The translations under genes and the position numbers were made by a program. From positions 2,687 through 14,173 of the forward strand of contig MHGR01000133.1 of the NCBI GenBank assembly GCA_001805655.1: a stretch of 11,487 nucleotides of DNA, given 5' to 3'. Under the pieces are notes generated by a model. The model saw nothing but the letters and a program-made list of their open reading frames with translations. It was not told the origin of the DNA and did not search any database. This DNA is from Omnitrophica WOR_2 bacterium RIFCSPHIGHO2_02_FULL_52_10. Lineage in GTDB: Bacteria > Omnitrophota > Gorgyraeia > Zapsychrales > Zapsychraceae. Below, piece by piece: positions 924 to 7,758 of this stretch; position 1 is the first letter of the stretch, and every line of letters starts with the position of its first letter.

Positions 924-1400
924 TTAATGCGGGTTTTCCGGATATTTCTTCAAGCGTTCTTCTAATTCCATGACCTTGTTGCGGAGACTATCTATCATTT
1001 TTCGGTCCGTAATATCTTTAATAGTAATAATTATGAGCTTCGTACGGTTGGCCTCCAAATAGAATCGACAGGCGTTGAGCGACATGATGCGCTTGCCGAT
1101 ACCGGGAAAATCATGTTCGACCTCAAAGTTATCAAAACTCTCCGTCCTGGGAAGGATTTCTTCTAAAAGCTGCCGTAGTTTCAGGATATCCCACTGAAAA
1201 TTTCCCAGGTCATAAATAAACTGCCCCTCGGTCTCCTCAGGTTTTACATCGAAGGCCTGATAGAAGGAGCGGCTGGCTAACGCCACCTTTAAATCCTCAT
1301 ACAGAATTATTAACGGATCATGCATGGTATTGATGATACGTTCCGTGTATTCAAGAGCATCCTGAATTTCTAATTCTTTCATTTTCTCTCTAAATTTCAT
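924..1400 (-). CDS. Stand-alone PAS-domain protein
   Basis: The 158-residue protein has one PAS domain (about residues 15-132) and a short charged coiled-coil tail (about 134-152). The segment LGNFQWDILKLRQLLEEILP followed by EVEHDFPGIGKRIMSLNA and IKDITDRK is characteristic of the PAS domain found in CheR/CheB-type fusions and PAS histidine kinases, where a HisKA or methyltransferase domain normally follows. Here the gene stops right after the linker helix, so there is no output domain. It may act as a sensor or dimerisation partner for a kinase encoded elsewhere, or be a remnant. The ATG at 1400 is preceded by GAGGTGAG. A possible -10 lies at 1443-1448. It shares its strand and probably its transcript with the small ORF at 747-908. 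Confidence 0.8.
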   Translation of the reverse strand: MKFREKMKELEIQDALEYTERIINTMHDPLIILYEDLKVALASRSFYQAFDVKPEETEGQFIYDLGNFQWDILKLRQLLEEILPRTESFDNFEVEHDFPGIGKRIMSLNACRFYLEANRTKLIIITIKDITDRKMIDSLRNKVMELEERLKKYPENPH

Positions 1401-1442
1401 GCCTCACCTCGTTTCACTCATTAGTAAAGAAATGGATGAATA

Positions 1443-1448
1443 ATTATA
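1443..1448 (-). promoter_or_regulatory. Candidate -10 box for the PAS gene
   Basis: The minus strand reads TATAAT here, about 43 bp upstream of the PAS start codon. At 17 bp further upstream the hexamer is CGGGAT, a poor -35 match, so the call rests on the perfect -10 alone. Confidence 0.35.
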
Positions 1449-1515
1449 CCACCTTTATTCCTTTCATCCCGTACTATTTTTACCAGGGTTGGGAAGTCGC
1501 CAAGGACAAATAGGG

Positions 1516-1575
1516 ATGGAGCCTGCCGCGGAGACTATTCAATACAGAAGTTTAGACCGAGGCTGGTGGCCGTGA
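1516..1575 (+). pseudogene. comM: comM 3'-end remnant 1
   Basis: Codons 1528-1572 read [15 protein letters not shown] and then TGA, matching the ComM C-terminus EAIQYRSLD seen in the longer fragment at 6033-6497. Upstream of codon 1528 the similarity to comM breaks down through small indels around 1518-1530. Only about 15-20 codons survive, so this is a dead tail. It is followed 67 bp later by a pilin 3' end on the other strand, the same convergent arrangement as the comM/pilin pair at 6497/6600. Confidence 0.7.
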
Positions 1576-1642
1576 GATCTTGATTTGAACCGAAATGATC
1601 TGGGGCATGGCACGGGAGTGGGGCAAATCCGCATCTGTCCGA

Positions 1643-1741
1643 TTAACACCCCGGAACAGACGGGCAGGCGATACTTCCCGCGTTACAGCACGGGTTCGCC
1701 GCGGAAGCCGGTCCCTGGTTCATTTCCAGCTCAAAAAGCTG
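1643..1741 (-). pseudogene. Type IV pilin-like gene, 3'-end remnant
   Basis: Read on the minus strand this encodes about 33 residues ending ANPCCNAGSIACPSVPGC and then TAA (1643-1645). The intact pilin at 6600-7031 ends ANPCCNAGSIACPSVPAC. Over the last 31 codons there are only two amino-acid changes (Asp to Glu, Ala to Gly), while several codons differ synonymously (GGG/GGA, AGC/AGT, TGT/TGC, CCT/CCG). The copy therefore diverged as a functional gene before being truncated, rather than being a recent duplication. It is cut at about 1730-1741, where it joins a comM fragment on the opposite strand. No prepilin start or N-terminus is present. Confidence 0.85.
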
Positions 1742-1842
1742 CGCGCACGATTGCAGATTTGGCAAGCTCGGAATAGTTCAAAACCGAACACTTGGCGGAG
1801 GCGATACAGTACCGCTCGTTAGACAGAGATTTTTTTGGTTAG
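1741..1842 (+). pseudogene. comM: comM 3'-end remnant 2 with in-frame stop
   Basis: The frame reads ARTIADLASSE, a TAG at 1774-1776, then [21 protein letters not shown] and TAG at 1840-1842. It aligns codon for codon with [33 protein letters not shown] at the end of the right-hand comM fragment, where the in-frame stop replaces a CAG codon. Most other codon differences are synonymous, so this tail came from a diverged comM copy and not from direct duplication of the one at 6497. It is joined on the left to a pilin remnant and borders the island, whose last gene ends at 1864. Confidence 0.85.
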
Positions 1843-1863
1843 AGATGACCATAGGCTAGAAGT

Positions 1864-2742
1864 TTAGGATTTAATTGTTTGAACATCTATTGATTTTTCC
1901 TCCTGCTTGCTCAGTTGGTCTTTTGAAATCATATCCTGAACCACATTTCGTACAAAGTCCATCGGAACAACAGAAGCTAAACCAGAATTCTCGACAAATT
2001 TAATTCTAGGTTGCGGTGGATCGCTCTGCAAACTATAAGCAATTTCTTCGTAAGGAATATACCCTTTCACTAAACCTAACAAAAACGCACGGTTCACAGG
2101 TGTCGTCCCTTGAATGCTTACAATGGCAGGTTTCAAAATTACCGGACCGCCACTATTCCCTGGGAAAACCGATGAGTCCACCAAAAAAGTTTTTGTAGAT
2201 CTTATGATCTCATCATCCAATCTTGAAATAATGCCGCCTTTAACAATGACATATTTCTTTTCTTCACCAGCGATTCCCATAGGAAATCCTAATACAAAAA
2301 TTTCATCTCCTTGTGATATGCCTAACTCCTTTATTTTATCCATATAGGCGAAATCACTTTCTGTTATCCAAAAGAACTCAACATTGTCCTGTTGTAGCTT
2401 ATCTGCGGCTATTGGGACTATTCCTACATCAACATCTTTTTCTTGATGTGTTTTCCAAAGCGGGCTGTTCTTATCATCAAATAGCGGCAAAAAATATCGC
2501 CTCGAGCCGCTTGCATGATTAAACTTTAACCACACTTCTTTTTTAGTATCGAATACATGCCGATTTGAAACAAGGAATGTCCTGAAAAATTCTTCTCCTC
2601 TATCATTTTTATTCCCTGTCGGAAAACCAACCAAGAAACCGGTGGCGATCGAACGAAATTTCTCTGATTCGCCATTTTGTGGTGCAATCTTTTCCTCGAT
2701 AGAAACAACTGCATCAAGATATTGTCTTGGTAATAATGACAC
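1864..2742 (-). CDS. Trypsin-like serine protease, cytoplasmic
   Basis: The 292-residue protein has a chymotrypsin/trypsin-type fold with a complete apparent triad: His62 in SNRHVF, Asp105 in KDVDVGIV and Ser197 in FPGNSGGPV. A GDEIFVLGFP strand precedes the serine half. There is no signal peptide or membrane segment and no PDZ domain, so it differs from DegP-type proteases and should act in the cytoplasm. The start is GTG (2740-2742) with GGGGAGGG seven bases upstream. It begins 20 bp after the HNH gene stop, so the two are very likely co-transcribed. The C-terminal 25 residues are charged and probably disordered. Its substrate is unknown. Such lone proteases occur in defence islands, where they can act as effectors or regulators; that role here is inference from context. 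Confidence 0.87.
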   Translation of the reverse strand: MSLLPRQYLDAVVSIEEKIAPQNGESEKFRSIATGFLVGFPTGNKNDRGEEFFRTFLVSNRHVFDTKKEVWLKFNHASGSRRYFLPLFDDKNSPLWKTHQEKDVDVGIVPIAADKLQQDNVEFFWITESDFAYMDKIKELGISQGDEIFVLGFPMGIAGEEKKYVIVKGGIISRLDDEIIRSTKTFLVDSSVFPGNSGGPVILKPAIVSIQGTTPVNRAFLLGLVKGYIPYEEIAYSLQSDPPQPRIKFVENSGLASVVPMDFVRNVVQDMISKDQLSKQEEKSIDVQTIKS

Positions 2743-2764
2743 TTAATTGCCCTCCCCTAGAATT
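2739..2764. repeat. Imperfect direct repeat flanking the HNH gene (copy 1)
   Basis: This stretch matches 3165-3190 at 21 of 26 positions in the same orientation. On the minus strand it contains the protease ribosome binding site and GTG start (GGGGAGGGCAATTAAGTGT), and it also overlaps the HNH stop codon. Confidence 0.55.
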
Positions 2765-3065
2765 AGTTTCTGATCTTACACGTAAAATTTGGATAATCAT
2801 CCCCTTTATGGCGATTATTTTCCCATTGAAGGGGTTGTAAATTGCTCAAATCGTCTGTCCCGCCTTTAGAAACTGGGTTGATATGATCAATCTCCCATCC
2901 CCATTGTTCTGTTTTACCGTACTTCTGCCTTTGCATACTCGCCCCACATTTATCCTTCCTATAACTTGGATATTGTGGTTCGGGTGTTCCTTTTTGCCAA
3001 ACGGCTTCAACAGTTCTTTCATCAAATGATCCACCGCTTGTAGTTGTGTTTGGATTACGGCCCAT
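2763..3065 (-). CDS. Small HNH endonuclease
   Basis: This 100-residue protein carries a compact HNH nuclease domain: WEIDHINPVSKGGTDDLSNL with Asp60-His61 and Asn75, then QPLQWENNRHKGD with Asn84 as the likely third HNH residue. Cys40 lies in KDKCGA; the usual second zinc CxxC pair is missing. The N-terminal SFDERTVEAVWQKG helix is typical of this small family, found in phages and mobile elements and beside restriction genes. The ATG at 3065 has GGAGG eight bases upstream. The gene sits between the endonuclease terminator (3101-3133) and the protease gene, within imperfect 26-bp direct repeats (2739-2764 and 3165-3190). It may be a nicking or homing-type enzyme or part of a two-gene unit with the protease. 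Confidence 0.85.
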   Translation of the reverse strand: MGRNPNTTTSGGSFDERTVEAVWQKGTPEPQYPSYRKDKCGASMQRQKYGKTEQWGWEIDHINPVSKGGTDDLSNLQPLQWENNRHKGDDYPNFTCKIRN

Positions 3066-3100
3066 AATTCATCCCTCCTATTTAACGGTATAAAAAATAA

Positions 3101-3133
3101 ACCATAGCCCTTGAACTCCATTAGGACTATGGT
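3101..3133 (-). terminator. Intrinsic terminator after the restriction endonuclease gene
   Basis: On the minus strand ACCATAGTCC pairs with GGGCTATGGT (ten pairs, one G-T) around a 13-base loop, followed at once by TTATTTTTTATACC. It lies about 90 bp after the endonuclease stop and 35 bp before the HNH start, so it separates the R-M genes from the HNH-protease pair, or acts as an attenuator in the leader of that pair. Confidence 0.7.
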
Positions 3134-3164
3134 AAAGTAATTCAGGGGTTAAAAATAATCGCTA

Positions 3165-3190
3165 ATACTTAATTACCCTCACCCAGAGTT
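3165..3190. repeat. Imperfect direct repeat flanking the HNH gene (copy 2)
   Basis: Partner of 2739-2764 (21 of 26 identical, offset 426 bp). On the minus strand it reads like a ribosome binding site plus start (GGTGAGGGTAATTAAGTAT), but the start codon position is GTA and no long ORF follows. Confidence 0.55.
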
Positions 3191-3211
3191 GCCGCTCTGG
3201 GCTTTTCTTTT
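3182..3211 (+). terminator. Plus-strand intrinsic terminator with no plus-strand gene
   Basis: CCCAGAG, a six-base loop TTGCCG and CTCTGGG are followed by CTTTTCTTTT on the plus strand. All neighbouring genes are on the minus strand, where the hairpin is followed by TGAGGGT and has no U-tract. It could end a short plus-strand RNA starting near 3145. Confidence 0.5.
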
Positions 3212-3220
3212 AACTTCCAA

Positions 3221-4069
3221 TCATAATTTACCCTCTTCCAAATCAACTGGCGGTTCTATCCCAAGAAATTCTCTGTATATCCTATCTTTGTATTCCTTGC
3301 CAATTTCATTTACCGCGCTAATGAAAGCTCGATAAGTTCCGATCCCACCAATTTTTTCCCAAAATTCGTCTCCAATCAGCACCACATCGTCATTTTTCAT
3401 GTTGAACCAACGTGCTGGGAAAGTCCAGTTATAATCTGCGCGCTTCCCATAAGGATTATATGGTAGTGCATAATAAGCGCCATCCATCTGCAAAGGCTCC
3501 ATACTATAAAGCTTCAGAATTTTTTCTTTACTTACCTTTGTTTGATCACTGTTGGGGAGAGGGGCCTTTAATTCAAAAACATACTTCTTCCCATTTTTTC
3601 TATCTTCAGCATAAACATCGCAGATAACTGTCGTTGGAATCAGTTTCTTATCTTTGCCACCTAGAATGTATGACAATTCCTCTTTCCAATTCGGTCTTAT
3701 TTTTTTTGCTCCCCTTTCTGAATGTTCTAGTTTGTTCAAAACCTCTTGGATTCGGCGTAACCTCTCGGAATTAACCTGTCCTCTTATATTGAATCCTTGG
3801 ACGCCATATCCTAAACCTTTATTCGCGGCTACTATCGCCAATTTTTCCCACGCGTTACCAAAAGGAGTTACAAATCTTCTTTCAAAATGTGAGCCCTTAA
3901 AGATTTCGTCAGGCACCAGAGCGGCATATAAAGGTTTTTCCGCCCGATGATCTTCCTTAATAAACGGATCCTCAACCAATACCTTATGCATAATCCTATC
4001 CATCATCGTCTTGATGACAGACTGTATGGCCATTTTCATTTCTTTTTTATCTGTCATACCTTTTTCCAT
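3221..4069 (-). CDS. Type II restriction endonuclease, TdeIII-like, PD-(D/E)XK
   Basis: The 282-residue protein looks like the TdeIII family of type II restriction enzymes: TPFGNAWEKLA near residue 68, IICDVYA-type strand with Asp151 (sequence TTVICDVYA), the catalytic E-x-K in FELKAP (Glu166, Lys168) followed by LPNSDQTKVSKEKILKL, then ALPYNPYGKRADYNW, and GDEFWEKIGGIGTY near residue 233. Asp151 and Glu166-x-Lys168 form the PD-(D/E)XK metal site. TdeIII itself is known to cut GGNCC; whether this enzyme does is not shown. The gene overlaps the methyltransferase stop. ATG at 4069 has no clear ribosome binding site; a second in-frame ATG at 4057 makes a four-base ATGA overlap with the methyltransferase stop and may be the real start (278 residues). 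The tight coupling fits a methylase-first R-M pair. Confidence 0.85.
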   Translation of the reverse strand: MEKGMTDKKEMKMAIQSVIKTMMDRIMHKVLVEDPFIKEDHRAEKPLYAALVPDEIFKGSHFERRFVTPFGNAWEKLAIVAANKGLGYGVQGFNIRGQVNSERLRRIQEVLNKLEHSERGAKKIRPNWKEELSYILGGKDKKLIPTTVICDVYAEDRKNGKKYVFELKAPLPNSDQTKVSKEKILKLYSMEPLQMDGAYYALPYNPYGKRADYNWTFPARWFNMKNDDVVLIGDEFWEKIGGIGTYRAFISAVNEIGKEYKDRIYREFLGIEPPVDLEEGKL

Positions 4070-5250
4070 ATCAGAATACTTTCGTAGAAAGCACCTTCTC
4101 TTCGACCCGTTCTTCTGTTGACATGTCGTTCAACACGGCCGATGGGTTTAAAGCCAACCTCCTCTGGTTTGTATAAATTGAATTTGTCGTTAACGACAAT
4201 TAAGGCGAGCGCATCTTTTACCATAAAGTCTCTTGTGTGAGACAGCACTTCATTTATTCCTTTAATGTAATCTTTGCGTGCCTGTTCTGACTGCCCGTTC
4301 TTAGCCGCTCCGATTTCTCGTGTTTCATTATTTTGTAAACCGAATAATTCATAAGCATATTTGTGTTGCTCATGATAGTCAATAAGTCCAATATACGGTG
4401 GTGATGTAAAAACCATATCAATTCCCTTGGGCAACTTTACCTCGTGGGAATCATCGTGATTGACGATAACAGAAGCTTTCGTGCGAATTTTGGCGAATTC
4501 CCTTATCCGGTCTATTGTGTCGAGGGTATATCGATATAAAAACTTATATGCCTCATCAACCGGCTGACATGTCCTATCATGTTTATAACAATAATATGCT
4601 TTGGTTTGTGGGTTTTTGGGAAAATCTAAATCATAATGAGTTACCAAACGAGCAGAGCGGGCTGATCGCGACAGAATGACTTTCAGCAAATCTTGATAGG
4701 TATAATTTCTAATTAATCCCTTAAAATACAAAAGCTCTCGTTGTGTATTTGCCGAGAACCATGTCTTTATGTATTCGCTTTCCGTTGATAATTGACCATT
4801 ACCTCTGGTCTTCCTAAAAATCGAACCGTATTTAAAATCGTATAAATTTCTCAAAATATCCTTGAATTCTTTCTCAAGCAACAAAACATCATATTCTGCT
4901 GTTTTTACCTTTGCTAACAACGTGTTAAAGACCGAAATATCAGTACCAACCGAATCAATACCCAAGACATTTGCTTCGACTAAAGTGGTCCCTGAGCCGC
5001 AAAAAGGATCATAAACTAATTTAGGGGCATATTTTCTTAAAAAGATCTCAACCAGTTGAGGAATAAATTTTCCCATGTAAGGGTGCAACCTGTGGACGTG
5101 CTTTGTTCTTTCAATCTCAGGCAAATCACGTTCACGCCAATTCAAATTTAATTCTTCAAGTTTGGTTAAACGATTTACACTTGCAAAATCCGTTAAAGGC
5201 ATTTCGTTGTATTGTTTTGCAATTTTGTGAGCTACAGCATTATCATACAT
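4054..5250 (-). CDS. DNA methyltransferase of the R-M system (m4C/m6A class)
   Basis: The 398-residue protein has the S-adenosylmethionine-binding motif DPFCGSGTT (residues 81-89) preceded by the motif-X-like stretch HRLHPYMGKFIPQLVEIF (residues 53-70), then GTDIS (103-107), a long variable region (about 120-270) that probably holds target recognition, and the catalytic motif TSPPY (282-286). The order X, I, variable region, IV is the alpha-type arrangement. TSPPY is commonest in N4-cytosine enzymes but also occurs in N6-adenine ones, so the modified base is left open. The start has a strong AGGAGGAGG six bases upstream of ATG 5250. It follows the LexA-like gene by 73 bp and overlaps the endonuclease, giving repressor, methylase, endonuclease order. 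An inverted repeat (5274-5314) lies just upstream. Confidence 0.93.
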   Translation of the reverse strand: MYDNAVAHKIAKQYNEMPLTDFASVNRLTKLEELNLNWRERDLPEIERTKHVHRLHPYMGKFIPQLVEIFLRKYAPKLVYDPFCGSGTTLVEANVLGIDSVGTDISVFNTLLAKVKTAEYDVLLLEKEFKDILRNLYDFKYGSIFRKTRGNGQLSTESEYIKTWFSANTQRELLYFKGLIRNYTYQDLLKVILSRSARSARLVTHYDLDFPKNPQTKAYYCYKHDRTCQPVDEAYKFLYRYTLDTIDRIREFAKIRTKASVIVNHDDSHEVKLPKGIDMVFTSPPYIGLIDYHEQHKYAYELFGLQNNETREIGAAKNGQSEQARKDYIKGINEVLSHTRDFMVKDALALIVVNDKFNLYKPEEVGFKPIGRVERHVNRRTGRREGAFYESILIWKKV

Positions 5251-5273
5251 AGAAAACCTCCTCCTCTTTTTAC

Positions 5274-5314
5274 CAATGTGCAGAGGGGAAATTTTTGGGG
5301 AATGCTACACATTG
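5274..5314. promoter_or_regulatory. Inverted repeat in the methyltransferase leader, candidate operator
   Basis: CAATGTG (5274-5280) and CACATTG (5308-5314) are perfect 7-bp arms, 27 bp apart, in the 73-bp gap between the LexA-like gene and the methyltransferase. The interior holds two similar G-rich stretches on the plus strand (GAGGGGAAATT and TGGGGAATG). The position suits a regulator-binding site or an mRNA hairpin for the R-M genes. Confidence 0.4.
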
Positions 5315-5323
5315 AAATTGTTG

Positions 5324-5947
5324 TTAAAATTCTGGAATCGCTGTGACAACAATTCCTTGAATCTGAAAATCCTTTGTTAAAACAATCGGCTGATGGTCTT
5401 TATTTTTCGATCTTGGCTTCAAAATAACGGTTTCGCCAGCCGAATGAAATTCCTTCACCGTCGCTTCATCGTCAATTAAGGCTACCACTATATCACCATC
5501 TTGAGCGGTTGCTTGCTGCCGGATTAAGAGAAAATCGCCATCATTAATTCCTTTTAGATCCATTGAGTCGCTCTTGGCTCTTAATAAAAAATATTTAGCC
5601 GGCGGTTTGGCCAATTTGGTGGAAACCGGGATCATCGCTTCGACATTCTCTTCCGCCAATACTGGAACGCCGCAAGAAATGCTACCCACCAACGGGACAT
5701 CGACCGTCTGCGCGCGTATTGATTCATCGGCAATGCCATTGACAAGCTGCAAATTGCCATCTCGTTTGCGACGCATAGCGCCCTTTTCAATCAAATTTTC
5801 GTAGATTACTGCGGCGGAACGGGGAGAACGGTAACCTAATGAAGCCATAAGCTCGCGAATGGAAGGGATTCTTCCCCTGTGCATGAGAGAATTACGGATT
5901 TCCCGAAGGGCCTCTAATTCTTTGTTTGATATGTCCTGAACTTTCAT
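5324..5947 (-). CDS. lexA: LexA-like self-cleaving transcriptional repressor (HTH + S24 peptidase)
   Basis: From ATG 5947 the protein has 207 residues. Residues 1-70 form a LexA winged helix-turn-helix (IPSIRELMASLGYRSPRSAA, then ENLIEKG). A short linker leads to the S24 domain: cleavage site SISCGVPVLAEENVE with Cys92-Gly93 in place of the Ala-Gly of E. coli LexA (Cys-Gly is the UmuD type), catalytic Ser128 in KSDSM and Lys165 in IDDEATVKEF. It should bind operators as a dimer and cleave itself when RecA filaments form on damaged DNA. An upstream in-frame GTG at 5965 would add six residues, but that codon lies beside the likely -10 box, so I chose the ATG. It is the first gene of the island and probably controls it. 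It could also be the host LexA, but its setting argues for an element-specific regulator. Confidence 0.9.
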   Translation of the reverse strand: MKVQDISNKELEALREIRNSLMHRGRIPSIRELMASLGYRSPRSAAVIYENLIEKGAMRRKRDGNLQLVNGIADESIRAQTVDVPLVGSISCGVPVLAEENVEAMIPVSTKLAKPPAKYFLLRAKSDSMDLKGINDGDFLLIRQQATAQDGDIVVALIDDEATVKEFHSAGETVILKPRSKNKDHQPIVLTKDFQIQGIVVTAIPEF

Positions 5948-5956
5948 ACATTCACA

Positions 5957-5984
5957 AGTATACACTTCGAATGCTTTATGTCAA
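5957..5984 (-). promoter_or_regulatory. Promoter of the LexA-like gene
   Basis: The minus strand has a perfect -35 TTGACA (5979-5984), a 16-bp spacer (5963-5978) and -10 TATACT (5957-5962). The spacer and -10 contain a near-palindrome AAGTGTATACTT and the palindrome TTCGAA, likely operator positions for autoregulation. The ATG at 5947 begins only ten bases after the -10 box, so the mRNA should be leaderless or carry only a few bases of leader. Confidence 0.75.
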
Positions 5985-6032
5985 CAGGTTTTTCAATCTT
6001 CAAAAAATTCTTTCACCTTCTCCATCCTATCC

Positions 6033-6497
6033 TTGTCGGACCCCAAAAAGGAATGCCAGTGTACCCCGCACCAAATCCAAAAATACCTGTCGAAAATCTC
6101 CGGGCCCCTTTTGGGCCGCATCGATCTTCATCTGGAAGTCCCGGCCCTCCCTTCCCATGATCTGATGGCCAACGCCCGCGCCGAAACATCACAGGCCATC
6201 AAGGAGCACATCCTCAAAGCCCGTGCCCTCCAGAAGGGGCGGTTCGCCGGCAGCGGTGCGGCGGCCAACGGCTACATGAGCCACCGGCAGATCAAGGAAT
6301 TTTGCGCCATGGATAATGAAGGGAAGGAGCTCCTGAAGAAGGCCATCGACGAGCTTGGGCTGTCCGCGCGCACCTACGATAAAATCCTCAAAGTGGCGCG
6401 GACGATCGCAGATCCGGCCGGTTCAGAGCAGGTTCAAACCGAACATCTGGCCGAGGCGATTCAATACCGCAGCTTAGATAAAAATGGGTGGGGGTAA
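6033..6497 (+). pseudogene. comM: comM (YifB family AAA+ / Mg-chelatase-like protein), C-terminal fragment
   Basis: About 154 codons encode the C-terminal third of ComM: SDPKKECQCTPHQIQKYLS, the second half of the Cys-rich loop; ISGPLLGRIDLHLEVPAL, which follows the AAA+ core; and the C-terminal helical domain from ETSQAIKEHILKARALQKG to EAIQYRSLD. Full-length ComM is about 500 residues and acts as a helicase in branch migration during natural transformation. The AAA+ Walker motifs are absent. Upstream of 6033 a frame-shifted trace of the NPCPCG loop may reach to about 6018 (YPCR in another frame), and the island repressor promoter starts at 5984. The frame itself is intact to TAA 6495-6497, so decay is recent or the rest was displaced. 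It is GC-richer than the island and converges on the pilin gene. Confidence 0.88.
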
Positions 6498-6505
6498 AAA
6501 AGAAA

Positions 6506-6539
6506 AACGTAGAAACGGAGCGTGCTCCGTCTCTACGTT
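6506..6539 (-). terminator. Strong terminator after the pilin operon
   Basis: A 34-base inverted repeat has 16-base arms with a single mismatch (AACGTAGAGACGGAGC on the minus strand) and a two-base centre. On the minus strand it is followed by TTTCTTTTTTACC. It lies 61 bp after the pilin stop and 9 bp after the convergent comM stop, so it ends pilin transcription. Confidence 0.85.
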
Positions 6540-6599
6540 ATCTCTTCTAGCTTTTGTAATAATATTGGCAAGGAAAAGGACAAATCCGCGGGCGCCAGA

Positions 6600-7031
6600 T
6601 TAACACGCCGGAACAGAAGGACAGGCGATGCTCCCCGCGTTACAGCAGGGATTGGCCGCGGAAGCCGGCCCCTGGTTCATTTCCAGGTCAAAAAGCGACG
6701 TGCCACCCGGGTCATTCCATCGGATCCCCGCCTCAAAGAGAGTCGGATCCGTGCTGCTATACCGGTACACGTACCGGGTAATGGCGGGCAATGTAAGCCT
6801 AAAGGTTTGATTGATATAATTCAGGTCCCCCGAAGCTTGAGCGGGGTATTGGCCTACCTGAGATCGGTAAAATTGGACAGCCGCGTGAATAACCCTCAAT
6901 TGCGCATTCATGTCCCGTTCGCGCACTTTACGTATGCCCGAGACATATGAGGGTATCGCGAAGGCCGCGACAATGCTGACCAGAATGATGACCACCACCA
7001 GCTCCATCAGCGTAAAGGCCTTGGTCTTCAT
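6600..7031 (-). CDS. Type IV pilin / type II pseudopilin-like protein
   Basis: The 143-residue protein has a class III prepilin leader: MKTKA, cleavage before Phe6, then FTLMELVVVIILVSIVAAFA with Glu at mature position 5, followed by the amphipathic helix (IRKVRERDMNAQLRVIHAAV) of the pilin stalk. Ala rather than Gly occupies position -1, which prepilin peptidases can tolerate. The C-terminal half is soluble and ends with a Cys-rich tail (Cys129, Cys130, Cys137, Cys143) that could form disulphides. GAGG lies seven bases before the ATG, and the start overlaps the upstream gene's stop by four bases (ATGA). It is the last gene of an operon with a response regulator and a secreted coiled-coil protein. 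A truncated homologue of its tail is found at 1643-1741. Confidence 0.9.
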   Translation of the reverse strand: MKTKAFTLMELVVVIILVSIVAAFAIPSYVSGIRKVRERDMNAQLRVIHAAVQFYRSQVGQYPAQASGDLNYINQTFRLTLPAITRYVYRYSSTDPTLFEAGIRWNDPGGTSLFDLEMNQGPASAANPCCNAGSIACPSVPAC

Positions 7032-7309
7032 TGTTTTTCCTCTTTGAATTCATTGAGCATGACCAGAATCCGCTCCAGCAGTTGGACGGTCTTTTCGCTG
7101 TTCTCCAGCATTTTTTTCTGGTACTCTTCCTGCTCTTCGGCCCGCCTGGTAACCTGCTCCTGCATCGTCGCCACACTGTCATCCTGGAATTTTTCCCTTT
7201 TCGTGGCCTTAAGGTCTTCGCTCCCGGCTAGGGCGAGGGCGGCAAAAACAGGGCTCAACATTAAGCAAAGTCCCAGGCAAATGACGCCATATCTCGATTC
7301 TTTCAGCAT
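7028..7309 (-). CDS. Secreted coiled-coil hypothetical protein
   Basis: I do not recognise the family. From ATG 7309, which has AGGAGG eight bases upstream, the protein has 93 residues. The N-terminus is a signal peptide (VICLGLCLMLSPVFAALALA) with a likely signal peptidase I site after Ala28 (ALA/GS) and no lipobox cysteine. The mature part (about 65 residues) is almost all charged helix with heptad-like spacing (EQVTRRAEEQEEYQKKMLEN, then LLERILVMLNEFKEE), consistent with a periplasmic coiled coil. An in-frame upstream ATG at 7342 has no ribosome binding site. Its stop overlaps the pilin start by four bases, so the two products are probably translated together and may work in the same pilus-like machine. 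Confidence 0.75.
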   Translation of the reverse strand: MLKESRYGVICLGLCLMLSPVFAALALAGSEDLKATKREKFQDDSVATMQEQVTRRAEEQEEYQKKMLENSEKTVQLLERILVMLNEFKEEKQ

Positions 7310-7350
7310 TGTCCACCCCTCCTTTTTACTACCCGTCTTCAAATTTGAGG

Positions 7351-7758
7351 TTAATTCTCCGTGGGGGTTTCCCCGGTCTTTTCCTTTATCTTCCTAGCCA
7401 GGTCCTCAAAGGAATAGGGCTTGATAATGTAATCATCGCAGCCCTGGTTGAAGGCCTCCATCCACGGCTCCCTAAACCCGGTCTGCATGATGATCTTGAC
7501 CCCGTCCTCGTAATCCAGCCCGCGGATCTCCTCTTCCTGGCGGATGGTCCTAAGGACGTCCAGCCCGCTGGTATCCGGCAGGCCCACGTCCAGCAGGATA
7601 CAGCTAAACGGCCGCTCATAATAGGCCTCCACGAACGCCGCGACCGCTTCCTTGCCGGTCGAAACGGCCGTCACGGCATATCCCGCTTTTGCCAGGCGGG
7701 AATTCAGCGCTTCACGGACATCCTGCTCATCCTCAACAATCAGTATGTTTCTGTCCAT
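7351..7758 (-). CDS. Single-domain response regulator (CheY-like receiver)
   Basis: The 135-residue protein is a receiver domain only: acidic pair Glu9-Asp10 in ILIVEDEQD, phosphoacceptor Asp57 in CILLDVGLPDTSG, Thr93 in IIMQTG and Lys113 in DYIIKPYSFEDLARKI. There is no DNA-binding output, so it should act by protein contact, as CheY or PilG/PilH-type regulators do. The reading frame stays open further upstream, but the receiver fold begins exactly at ATG 7758. No ribosome binding site is evident before it, and a GC-rich hairpin (7771-7785) lies in the leader. A promoter candidate is at 7806-7834. The stop is 41 bp before the secreted coiled-coil gene, so regulator, coiled-coil protein and pilin probably form one operon. 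Confidence 0.88.
   Translation of the reverse strand: MDRNILIVEDEQDVREALNSRLAKAGYAVTAVSTGKEAVAAFVEAYYERPFSCILLDVGLPDTSGLDVLRTIRQEEEIRGLDYEDGVKIIMQTGFREPWMEAFNQGCDDYIIKPYSFEDLARKIKEKTGETPTEN

Follow-up and report, generated by a model that had tools for sequence, protein, structure and literature searches.

We detected, at the head of a type II restriction-modification (R-M) operon in a member of the Omnitrophota, a LexA-like repressor (LexA2) that is distinct from the canonical LexA encoded elsewhere in the same genome. Based on its cleavage residues, its promoter sites and the varied restriction genes found behind its relatives, we propose that LexA2 probably represses its own gene, responds to RecA, and acts as the switch of restriction cassettes that can be exchanged behind it. 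The window, i.e., the whole stretch of DNA that was analyzed, comprises 11,487 nucleotides from Omnitrophica WOR_2 bacterium RIFCSPHIGHO2_02_FULL_52_10.

The first-pass annotation had described five minus-strand genes in the order LexA-like repressor, methyltransferase, TdeIII-like endonuclease, HNH nuclease, and trypsin-like protease. This order was confirmed, with each product scoring above a curated Pfam or NCBIfam cut-off. In the profile scan, the product of lexA2 (5324..5947, minus strand) reached 158 bits against TIGR00498 (cut-off 110.95), 100 against Peptidase_S24, and 30.8 against LexA_DNA_bind, while the other four proteins matched N6_N4_Mtase (47.3), RE_TdeIII (237.1), HNH (31.6), and Trypsin_2 (35.6). 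The DNA methyltransferase gene (4054..5250, minus) encodes motif I as DPFCGSGTT, then SPPY, and overlaps by 16 nt the gene of the TdeIII-family endonuclease (3221..4069, minus), in which we take D...FELK to be a PD-(D/E)XK-like motif. An RE_TdeIII nuclease adjoining a DNA methyltransferase is the arrangement of a TdeIII-type II R-M system; the TdeIII recognition site is GGNCC. The island (39.6% GC) had also been called AT-richer than both flanks, which holds clearly for the right flank (55.3% GC) and only slightly for the left one (42.8%, measured over 1-1500). The comM debris reported at its borders was recovered together with further copies of comM and pilin tails. A comM C-terminal piece of 154 codons (6033..6497, plus) lacks the N-terminal part, which was not found in the genome (assembly 76% complete). 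A second copy of the comM 3' end (1735..1830, plus; 73% to 6390-6485) lies at the left border, besides a third short copy (1528..1556, plus) and a copy of the pilin gene 3' end (1621..1746; 84% to 6578-6703).

LexA2 has the architecture of the LexA family, a LexA winged helix-turn-helix (wHTH) and an S24 peptidase, with an intact X-Gly cleavage site (Cys92-Gly93) and a Ser-Lys dyad (Ser128, Lys165), and its nearest solved structures are LexA first and UmuD second. The GTG at 5965 is an improbable start codon because it sits between the -35 and -10 boxes; ATG 5947 is probably the start, also because a database copy of the protein (P0126) has 207 aa. In an alignment of 80 LexA2-family sequences (the window protein and 79 of 80 listed loci, L137 being left out as truncated), the Gly, Ser, and Lys columns were each conserved in 80/80, and the P1 residue was Cys in 79 and Ala in one. 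The P1-P1' pair of canonical LexA was Ala-Gly in 7/7. A recA gene is present in the genome.

The first-pass annotation had named a finding that would refute its reading, namely that homologues of the repressor serve as the sole chromosomal LexA of related genomes lacking the R-M genes. This did not appear: the LexA retained by related genomes is a different one, of the canonical type and approximately 28-37% identical, and the island-type repressor is an additional, patchily distributed gene, present in 30 of 334 Omnitrophota genomes. The host itself carries a canonical lexA (G000:C101, 194.7 bits) with CCACACAGATGTATGG upstream, and its product is 29% identical to LexA2. LexA2 neither groups with the usual lexA of the phylum nor has its promoter box. 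In the tree, for which the bootstrap had not settled, the LexA2 clade was separate from canonical LexA with a support of 100/100, and the window fell in a clade of 15 rows, 13 with R-M genes and 2 unclassified.

Upstream of lexA2, a sigma-70-type candidate promoter, TTGACA-N16-TATACT (5957..5984, minus), has 11/12 hexamer matches and outscores the other 10 promoter-like sites in 1400-6600; such sites, 11 in total, are not enriched there (shuffle mean 11.1), and neither are terminator-like sites (7 vs 5.6 in shuffles). A transcript translated from ATG 5947 would have almost no leader. The best operator candidate, CATTCGAAGTGTATACTTGTGAATG (5949..5973, minus), spans the -10 box and the start, and was the single match at up to 3 mismatches in a search of its own genome (76% complete). 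The 69-nt upstream region of the window's lexA2 contains three GTAT/ATAC half-sites, and the strict direct repeat GTAT-N5-7-GTAT is absent from it. Among the Omnitrophota LexA2 upstreams tested (n = 38; L055 was dropped as it has no upstream sequence), at least two half-sites occurred in all 38 and the direct repeat in 26, vs 4/19 and 0/19 for canonical lexA, of which 16/19 carried a CCACAC-N4-GTGTGG-like box instead. In the wider LexA2 set, GTAT/ATAC sites were found in 78/80 upstreams vs 15.3 in letter shuffles. The scanned stretch at the host recA had neither a GTATAC-type nor a canonical-lexA-type site. The first-pass reading is supported in that LexA2 retains the self-cleavage residues and has promoter sites of the repressor type.

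The genes behind LexA2 in the Omnitrophota are predominantly those of R-M systems. A DNA methyltransferase lies behind 25 of the 34 LexA2 genes having sequence behind them (23 in a co-directional chain and two read by eye) and behind 0/19 canonical lexA genes. For the co-directional methyltransferases (23/34 vs 0/19), the Fisher p is 8e-7, but the loci are related by descent and hence do not count as independent events. One further LexA2 of the 34 heads CBASS alone, and neither a methyltransferase nor CBASS was found behind 8/34, including L194 and L197 with just 524 and 394 bases of contig behind them. The R-M genes are of at least six types, the cargo including TdeIII, Mrr_cat, Eco57I-like, MvaI/BcnI, DpnII with Dam, EcoRV, Vsr with C5, and NgoFVII. 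CBASS lies behind LexA2 at L052, L187, and L192, and the wider family also heads CBASS, E1-like, SIR2, translesion-polymerase, and recA operons. Specifically, recA lies behind its members at 4 loci (at 3 directly, at the fourth after a small intervening gene), and Y-family polymerase genes do so at 11 loci, 6 with a DnaE-type gene; 23 rows of the wider list remained unclassified. In all, at least 538 LexA2 loci were counted. In the open-licence PMC literature, searched by titles and abstract starts, no report of a LexA-like repressor heading R-M operons was found.

In support of the first-pass reading, an S24 repressor occupies the usual place of a C gene, and the same head gene precedes many other R-M operons. 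This position, together with the half-sites covering the promoter, would suit a C-protein analogue that times only the establishment of R-M by a burst followed by repression, with cleavage unused in life. We consider this unlikely: across many phyla, 79-80 of the 80 sequences retain the cleavage residues, which dimerization alone would not need, and relatives precede recA and Y-family polymerase genes. Those same neighbors could point to a second general SOS repressor that sits in the island by chance with passengers around it. Against such a role, which appears very improbable, stand the single operator match in the 76% complete assembly, the presence of LexA2 in 30 of the 334 genomes, and the varied R-M types behind it compared with 0/19 for canonical lexA. 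About as improbable is a leftover repressor of a phage or integrative element with defence genes as ordinary cargo. In favor of this reading, L012 has upstream genes for a phage integrase and an NrS-1-polymerase-like protein, and L050 has a serine recombinase. Against it, identity is 31-38% for the 22 relatives in viral contigs and below 60% for all 112 INPHARED records (the best 15 of the 112 at most 37%), the best named cellular locus is 87% identical, integrase or phage structural proteins are 0/12 among the window proteins scanned, and R-M linkage holds at most loci. On plasmids, 4711 records have LexA2 relatives, all below 60% identity; among the best 15 of the 4711, 12 are annotated as lexA, and in the other 3 the matched stretch is unannotated.

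The exchange of cassettes behind an autorepressed LexA2 is consistent with the borders that the islands have in common. The lexA2/R-M junction or leader (5251..5323, minus), with an inverted repeat CAATGTG...CACATTG and the Shine-Dalgarno sequence of the methyltransferase, was found in three of five islands compared, with DNA identities to the window of 89% (L012), 90% (L046), and 79% (L049). It is not common to L044 (64% over 25 nt), which resembles the window through the promoter and lexA2 up to the stop codon, where similarity ends. Three related islands also conserve the inverted repeat (5274-5314), which lacks the GTATAC motif. The fold of the junction does not improve on that of shuffles (z -0.58), and a leader fold hiding the Shine-Dalgarno sequence is at best weakly indicated. 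On the other side of the R-M genes, a conserved 3' element with two hairpins (3090..3211, minus) is common to six islands of the home family with differing R-M genes; all 6 copies found in 55 genomes (E<=1e-14) lie behind LexA2 R-M genes. L050, L052, L056, L057, and L058 lack it, and the loci examined showed it in the home family only. Its first hairpin (3182-3201) is terminator-like on the plus strand, and its second (3101-3133, T-run to 3092) resembles a terminator of the R-M operon. L055 has not conserved the second hairpin. The terminator scan listed the first hairpin and missed the second, the loop of which exceeds the limit of the scan. The fold of the element is modestly better than shuffles (z -1.79), and a search of the window against Rfam yielded nothing at E<=0.5.

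The HNH nuclease (2763..3065, minus; 100 aa), of a widespread family, and the trypsin-like protease (1864..2742, minus), a Trypsin_2 protein with H/D/S motifs, probably lie outside the R-M operon, because the second hairpin of the 3' element resembles a terminator. The initial suggestion that LexA2 also controls these two genes was not borne out, as both follow this hairpin and, when searched for in 91 related genomes, matched only weakly (HNH in 4, trypsin in 17). The protease matched the PADLOC candidate model PDC-S45 (77.1 bits, residues 27-229), although one model does not make a system. Protein-database homologues, counted without genomic context, numbered 2597 for HNH and 2711 for trypsin, and no trypsin homologue in viral contigs was confirmed.

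Considering these results, we hypothesize that LexA2 is a dedicated autorepressor transcribed together with, and ahead of, a type II R-M system, the methyltransferase followed by the TdeIII-type endonuclease. LexA2 dimers would occupy GTATAC-type sites over their own -10 box and start, thus holding the operon low. RecA filaments could form on single-stranded DNA of incoming or replicating phages or, alternatively, following endonuclease breaks in under-methylated host DNA, and would lead LexA2 to cut itself at Cys92-Gly93, derepressing the operon with the methyltransferase gene first. The repressor and the borders may provide a constant frame within which one R-M cassette has been exchanged for another, closed in the home family by the two-hairpin element, past which HNH and trypsin would form a separate accessory unit.

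Regulators of related kinds differ from LexA2 in several respects. CapH-CapP consists of an XRE repressor and a separate metallopeptidase, and C proteins are not known to have a peptidase domain. Canonical LexA (TIGR00498) is alike in its wHTH and S24 domains, Ser-Lys dyad, X-Gly cleavage site, and site on its own promoter, whereas LexA2 has Cys-Gly instead of Ala-Gly, has other promoter sites, and is encoded by an additional, patchily distributed gene at the head of defence operons. Type II C (control) proteins are presented in PMC3874152 as HTH activator/repressors encoded alongside R-M genes; LexA2 is not such a small HTH-type head gene product but a LexA_DNA_bind and S24 protein of the self-cleaving type. 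The non-canonical LexA of Bacteroidetes, according to PMC8565304, are S24 repressors taking over SOS-type control, with a CI-like N-terminus and GGA-N5-TCC or CTAA-N5-TTAG sites, unlike the LexA_DNA_bind N-terminus and GTATAC-type sites of LexA2. The same paper mentions UmuDAb of Acinetobacter as a DNA-binding, cleavable S24 repressor, which controls error-prone polymerases, while LexA2 heads R-M genes. FddR of Francisella (PMC13148647) is an S24 peptidase autoregulating a small damage-linked unit, but it was co-opted from a phage, its targets are transcribed divergently, and it is not the product of an R-M head gene. The WYL regulators BrxR and CapW, as described in PMC9122601 and PMC9122588, precede defence systems (BrxR homologues many kinds), and the CapW site covers the -10 box; they have a WYL ligand domain, whereas LexA2, for which the Pfam scan at E<=0.001 showed no WYL domain, has an S24 peptidase whose expected trigger would be RecA filaments. 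PMC12907096 reports that vsrA of Caulobacter, encoding a Vsr-type nuclease, is SOS-induced, that methylation loss results in Vsr-dependent damage and SOS, and that its authors suspect the housekeeping LexA at an intragenic site; vsrA has, as described there, neither a dedicated repressor nor a linked methyltransferase, unlike the LexA2 islands.

How defence operons are silenced and switched on is poorly known; one family of regulators, with a WYL domain, has already been reported in front of many different systems. If our reading of LexA2 is true, it would add a second regulator family before defence systems, with a trigger known in principle (RecA on single-stranded DNA), would provide a simple, testable infection and damage signal for R-M and CBASS, and would tie the SOS response to immunity across many uncultured phyla. 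The common borders around R-M cassettes would show how restriction specificity can be swapped without re-inventing control. The relatives heading varied restriction and anti-phage operons suggest that DNA damage may be used as a switch for bacterial immunity. More tentatively, and with somewhat less than even confidence, RecA-sensitive LexA-like switches may be an interchangeable front end of immunity across phyla, behind which type II R-M, CBASS, E1-like, and SIR2 genes are swapped, in places between conserved borders, damage (including that by the endonuclease) raising immunity. Methyltransferase-first cassettes would then protect the host by homeostatic methylation.

LexA2, the LexA-like S24 repressor of the window, is the second LexA of its genome (1.56 Mb in 137 contigs, completeness 76%), in which the other LexA, on contig C101, scores higher (194.7 vs. 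157.6 bits for the island protein). The first-pass annotation had named as a counter-case that its homologues are the sole chromosomal LexA of related genomes without the R-M genes; this was not borne out, as the usual lexA is kept besides. A search of 55 relatives with the island protein gave two groups, one of close relatives (46-93% identity) and one consisting of the usual lexA (about 28-37%). In a tree of 80 LexA2-type and seven canonical proteins, whose bootstrap had not settled, the two types were separated at 100/100, and the window grouped with locus L059 at 100/100. The 15-row clade holding the window comprises 13 loci labelled restriction-modification (R-M), one of these labels (L062) being based on an 82-residue fragment at a contig end, and two unclassified loci. 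Of the 80 aligned members, 79 have Cys and one has Ala at P1 of the cleavage site, and all conserve the Gly, Ser and Lys; this mostly Cys P1 differs from canonical LexA, with Ala-Gly in 7/7 proteins compared. LexA2 occurs in 30 of 334 Omnitrophota genomes (E ≤ 1e-50). The wider family counts at least 538 confirmed loci, the best 80 of which were kept and belong to Omnitrophota, Nitrospirota, Bacteroidota, Elusimicrobiota, Acidobacteriota, Patescibacteria and others.

The five minus-strand genes described previously were recovered in the same order, namely lexA2 (5324-5947), a DNA methyltransferase (4054-5250), a TdeIII-family endonuclease (3221-4069), an HNH protein of 100 residues (2763-3065) and a trypsin-like protease (1864-2742), with an overlap of 16 nt between the methyltransferase and endonuclease genes. 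The methyltransferase, endonuclease and protease carry the motifs that active enzymes of their kinds would have. The island (39.6% GC) is AT-richer than its right flank (55.3%), as claimed, but only narrowly so than its left flank (42.8%).

The proposed search of other genomes revealed that LexA2 heads R-M operons of several types in other Omnitrophota, including TdeIII, Mrr_cat, Eco57I-like, MvaI/BcnI, DpnII with Dam, EcoRV, Vsr with C5, and NgoFVII. We laid out 39 loci, and 34 were left after dropping five at contig edges (L045, L047, L051, L053, L054); L181 and L182 appear to be near copies. A methyltransferase followed in the co-directional chain at 23/34 loci (19 by motif script; L044, L056, L186 and L200 by Pfam), or 25/34 if the Dam-like genes of L185 and L190, read by eye behind a short antisense ORF that interrupts the chain, are included. 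CBASS was present alone at L187 and together with a methyltransferase at L052 and L192. Neither was found behind LexA2 at L057, L184, L189 and L193 to L197 by motif script, Pfam or eye, L194 and L197 having 524 and 394 bases of sequence there; a C5-like gene lies upstream of LexA2 at L057. At L184, a 674-residue protein (5397-7421), which we guess from its first residues to be PHP-like, stands behind LexA2 where R-M genes are absent. As a control, 20 canonical lexA loci were fetched and the gene was found in 19, none with a methyltransferase in its chain (23/34 vs. 0/19, Fisher p = 8e-7, for loci that share descent); two methyltransferase ORFs lie elsewhere in the stretch of canonical locus L214, outside the lexA chain.

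Among the best 80 of at least 538 loci, classified by Pfam on representatives and clusters, ten were CBASS-like (one with patatin), and DpnI, ThiF/E1-like operons, SIR2 and OLD-like genes were also found, with 23 rows unclassified. A Y-family polymerase occurred in 11 of these loci, all of one clade and six of them with a DnaE-type gene, and RecA-like genes in four (directly behind at L093, L133 and L134, after a small gene at L090; Pfam was run on L133). Both the Y-family polymerase and the RecA-like genes point to a damage-linked ancestry. Bacteroidota members (L095, L097, L098, L108, L112, L114 and related loci) head Y-family polymerase and DnaE-type genes; the GTGTATA-like repeats found upstream of them differ from the motifs published for Bacteroidetes SOS repressors. 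ThiF (E1-like) genes stand behind the LexA2-type gene at L104, L105 and L116 (Pfam on L104, with DUF6791, and L116), with small multiubiquitin-like genes in between, recognised by eye only. Besides, L126 carries, downstream of its LexA2-type gene, Tox-ART-HYD1 ADP-ribosyltransferase-like and macro-domain genes (3024-3971), resembling a toxin-antitoxin pair.

The 73-nt junction between lexA2 and the methyltransferase gene is 89%, 90% and 79% identical to those of L012 (TdeIII), L046 (Eco57I-like) and L049 (MvaI), respectively (84-89% by BLAST), although the identity of lexA2 itself at these loci is only 74-75%. The endonucleases or methylases of L046 and L049 belong to families other than the window's, and the likeness of their N6/N4 methyltransferases to it is limited to 53-79 residues. 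With L044, the island of a same-genus genome (G004), the promoter and lexA2 are alike (73-88% per 60-nt block), and the likeness ends past the stop codon. Behind the R-M genes, a two-hairpin 3' element of about 120 nt is 83-88% identical to L012, L044, L046 and L049 (78-82% by BLAST) and kept in part at L055, the island of genome G020. A terminator scan lists its first hairpin as a terminator-like site of the plus strand; the second hairpin, which has a T-run after it in the operon direction, is visible in folds and missing from the scan, whose limit its loop exceeds. Across the 55 genomes, a search with the element returned six strong matches (E ≤ 1e-14), each located downstream of the R-M genes of a LexA2 island, plus two fragments of 25-26 nt. 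The element is present at 6/10 LexA2 loci with enough sequence behind them and absent at L050, L052, L056 and L057, as well as at L058, whose sequence begins inside the LexA2 gene; the junction is common to four of the six islands with the element. We read these likenesses as marks of a probable exchange of R-M cassettes between common borders, via homologous recombination or otherwise.

The R-M island had been thought to end in the HNH and trypsin genes, possibly under the repressor. Both lie past the second hairpin with a Shine-Dalgarno-like AGGAGGG of their own, and in our reading they form an accessory unit apart from the R-M genes. They gave weak matches only in 91 related genomes; HNH is a widespread family with many matches at 74-92% identity, and for the trypsin the closest named relatives come from Patescibacteria (81% and 65%). 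In G004, the 3' element is followed instead by genes for a small protein and for a ClpP-like protease (L044, 10003-11075).

The comM debris reported to bound the island was confirmed, with a C-terminal piece of 154 codons on the right (6033-6497) and tail copies on the left (1735-1830 and 1528-1556), beside a pilin-tail copy (1621-1746). On both sides of the island (1528-1830 and 6033-6703), ends of comM and of the pilin gene are present in nested copies, which suggest that insertion at the 3' end of comM has happened more than once. With the complete comM of G020 as query, the C-terminal pieces on the window's own contig (C133) were all the comM found in its genome, and the N-terminal domain was not found, so that comM looks broken there, at least in an assembly that is 76% complete. 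A comM piece also adjoins L044, and a complete comM adjoins L055, where a reverse transcriptase gene (RVT_1, 2567-3526), possibly a retron, lies between the LexA2-EcoRV operon and comM.

TTGACA-N16-TATACT (5957-5984) is the top-scoring promoter candidate of the scanned region, although that region is no richer in promoter-like sites than its shuffles. Every Omnitrophota LexA2 upstream (38/38) has two or more GTAT/ATAC half-sites, and the direct repeat is present GTAT-N5-7-GTAT in 26/38, the window's own being without it; the strict canonical box occurs in 0/38. Canonical lexA upstreams have at least two half-sites in 4/19, the direct repeat in 0/19, and CCACAC-N4-GTGTGG exactly in 6/19 and within three mismatches in 16/19; that of the host reads CCACACAGATGTATGG. 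In the wider set of 80 upstreams, 78 have at least two half-sites, vs. 15.3 in letter shuffles. The window's 25-bp candidate site has one match in its own genome at ≤3 mismatches, and the stretch examined at recA (L268, contig C35) has neither the canonical box nor LexA2-type repeats.

LexA repressors, type II R-M systems and regulators of defence operons are already known kinds; among the papers listed by searches of an open-licence library we found none on a gene of LexA type that heads R-M and CBASS operons of many kinds, which may be described elsewhere. The sequence itself shows the anatomy of the island, the presence of a second LexA, its conserved residues, the promoter half-sites, the gene context and the borders, and we consider it reasonably probable that LexA2 is a damage-responsive, autorepressed switch of the R-M operon. 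By analogy with LexA and UmuD, LexA2 dimers would bind the promoter sites and repress their own gene, and RecA-stimulated self-cleavage would lead to induction. This might serve to raise restriction and methylation once single-stranded DNA appears, and the methyltransferase gene, placed ahead of the endonuclease gene in the window, may guard against self-cutting. In Caulobacter, loss of a cytosine methylase triggers a Vsr-dependent SOS response (PMC12907096), which shows that a feedback signal of this kind is possible.
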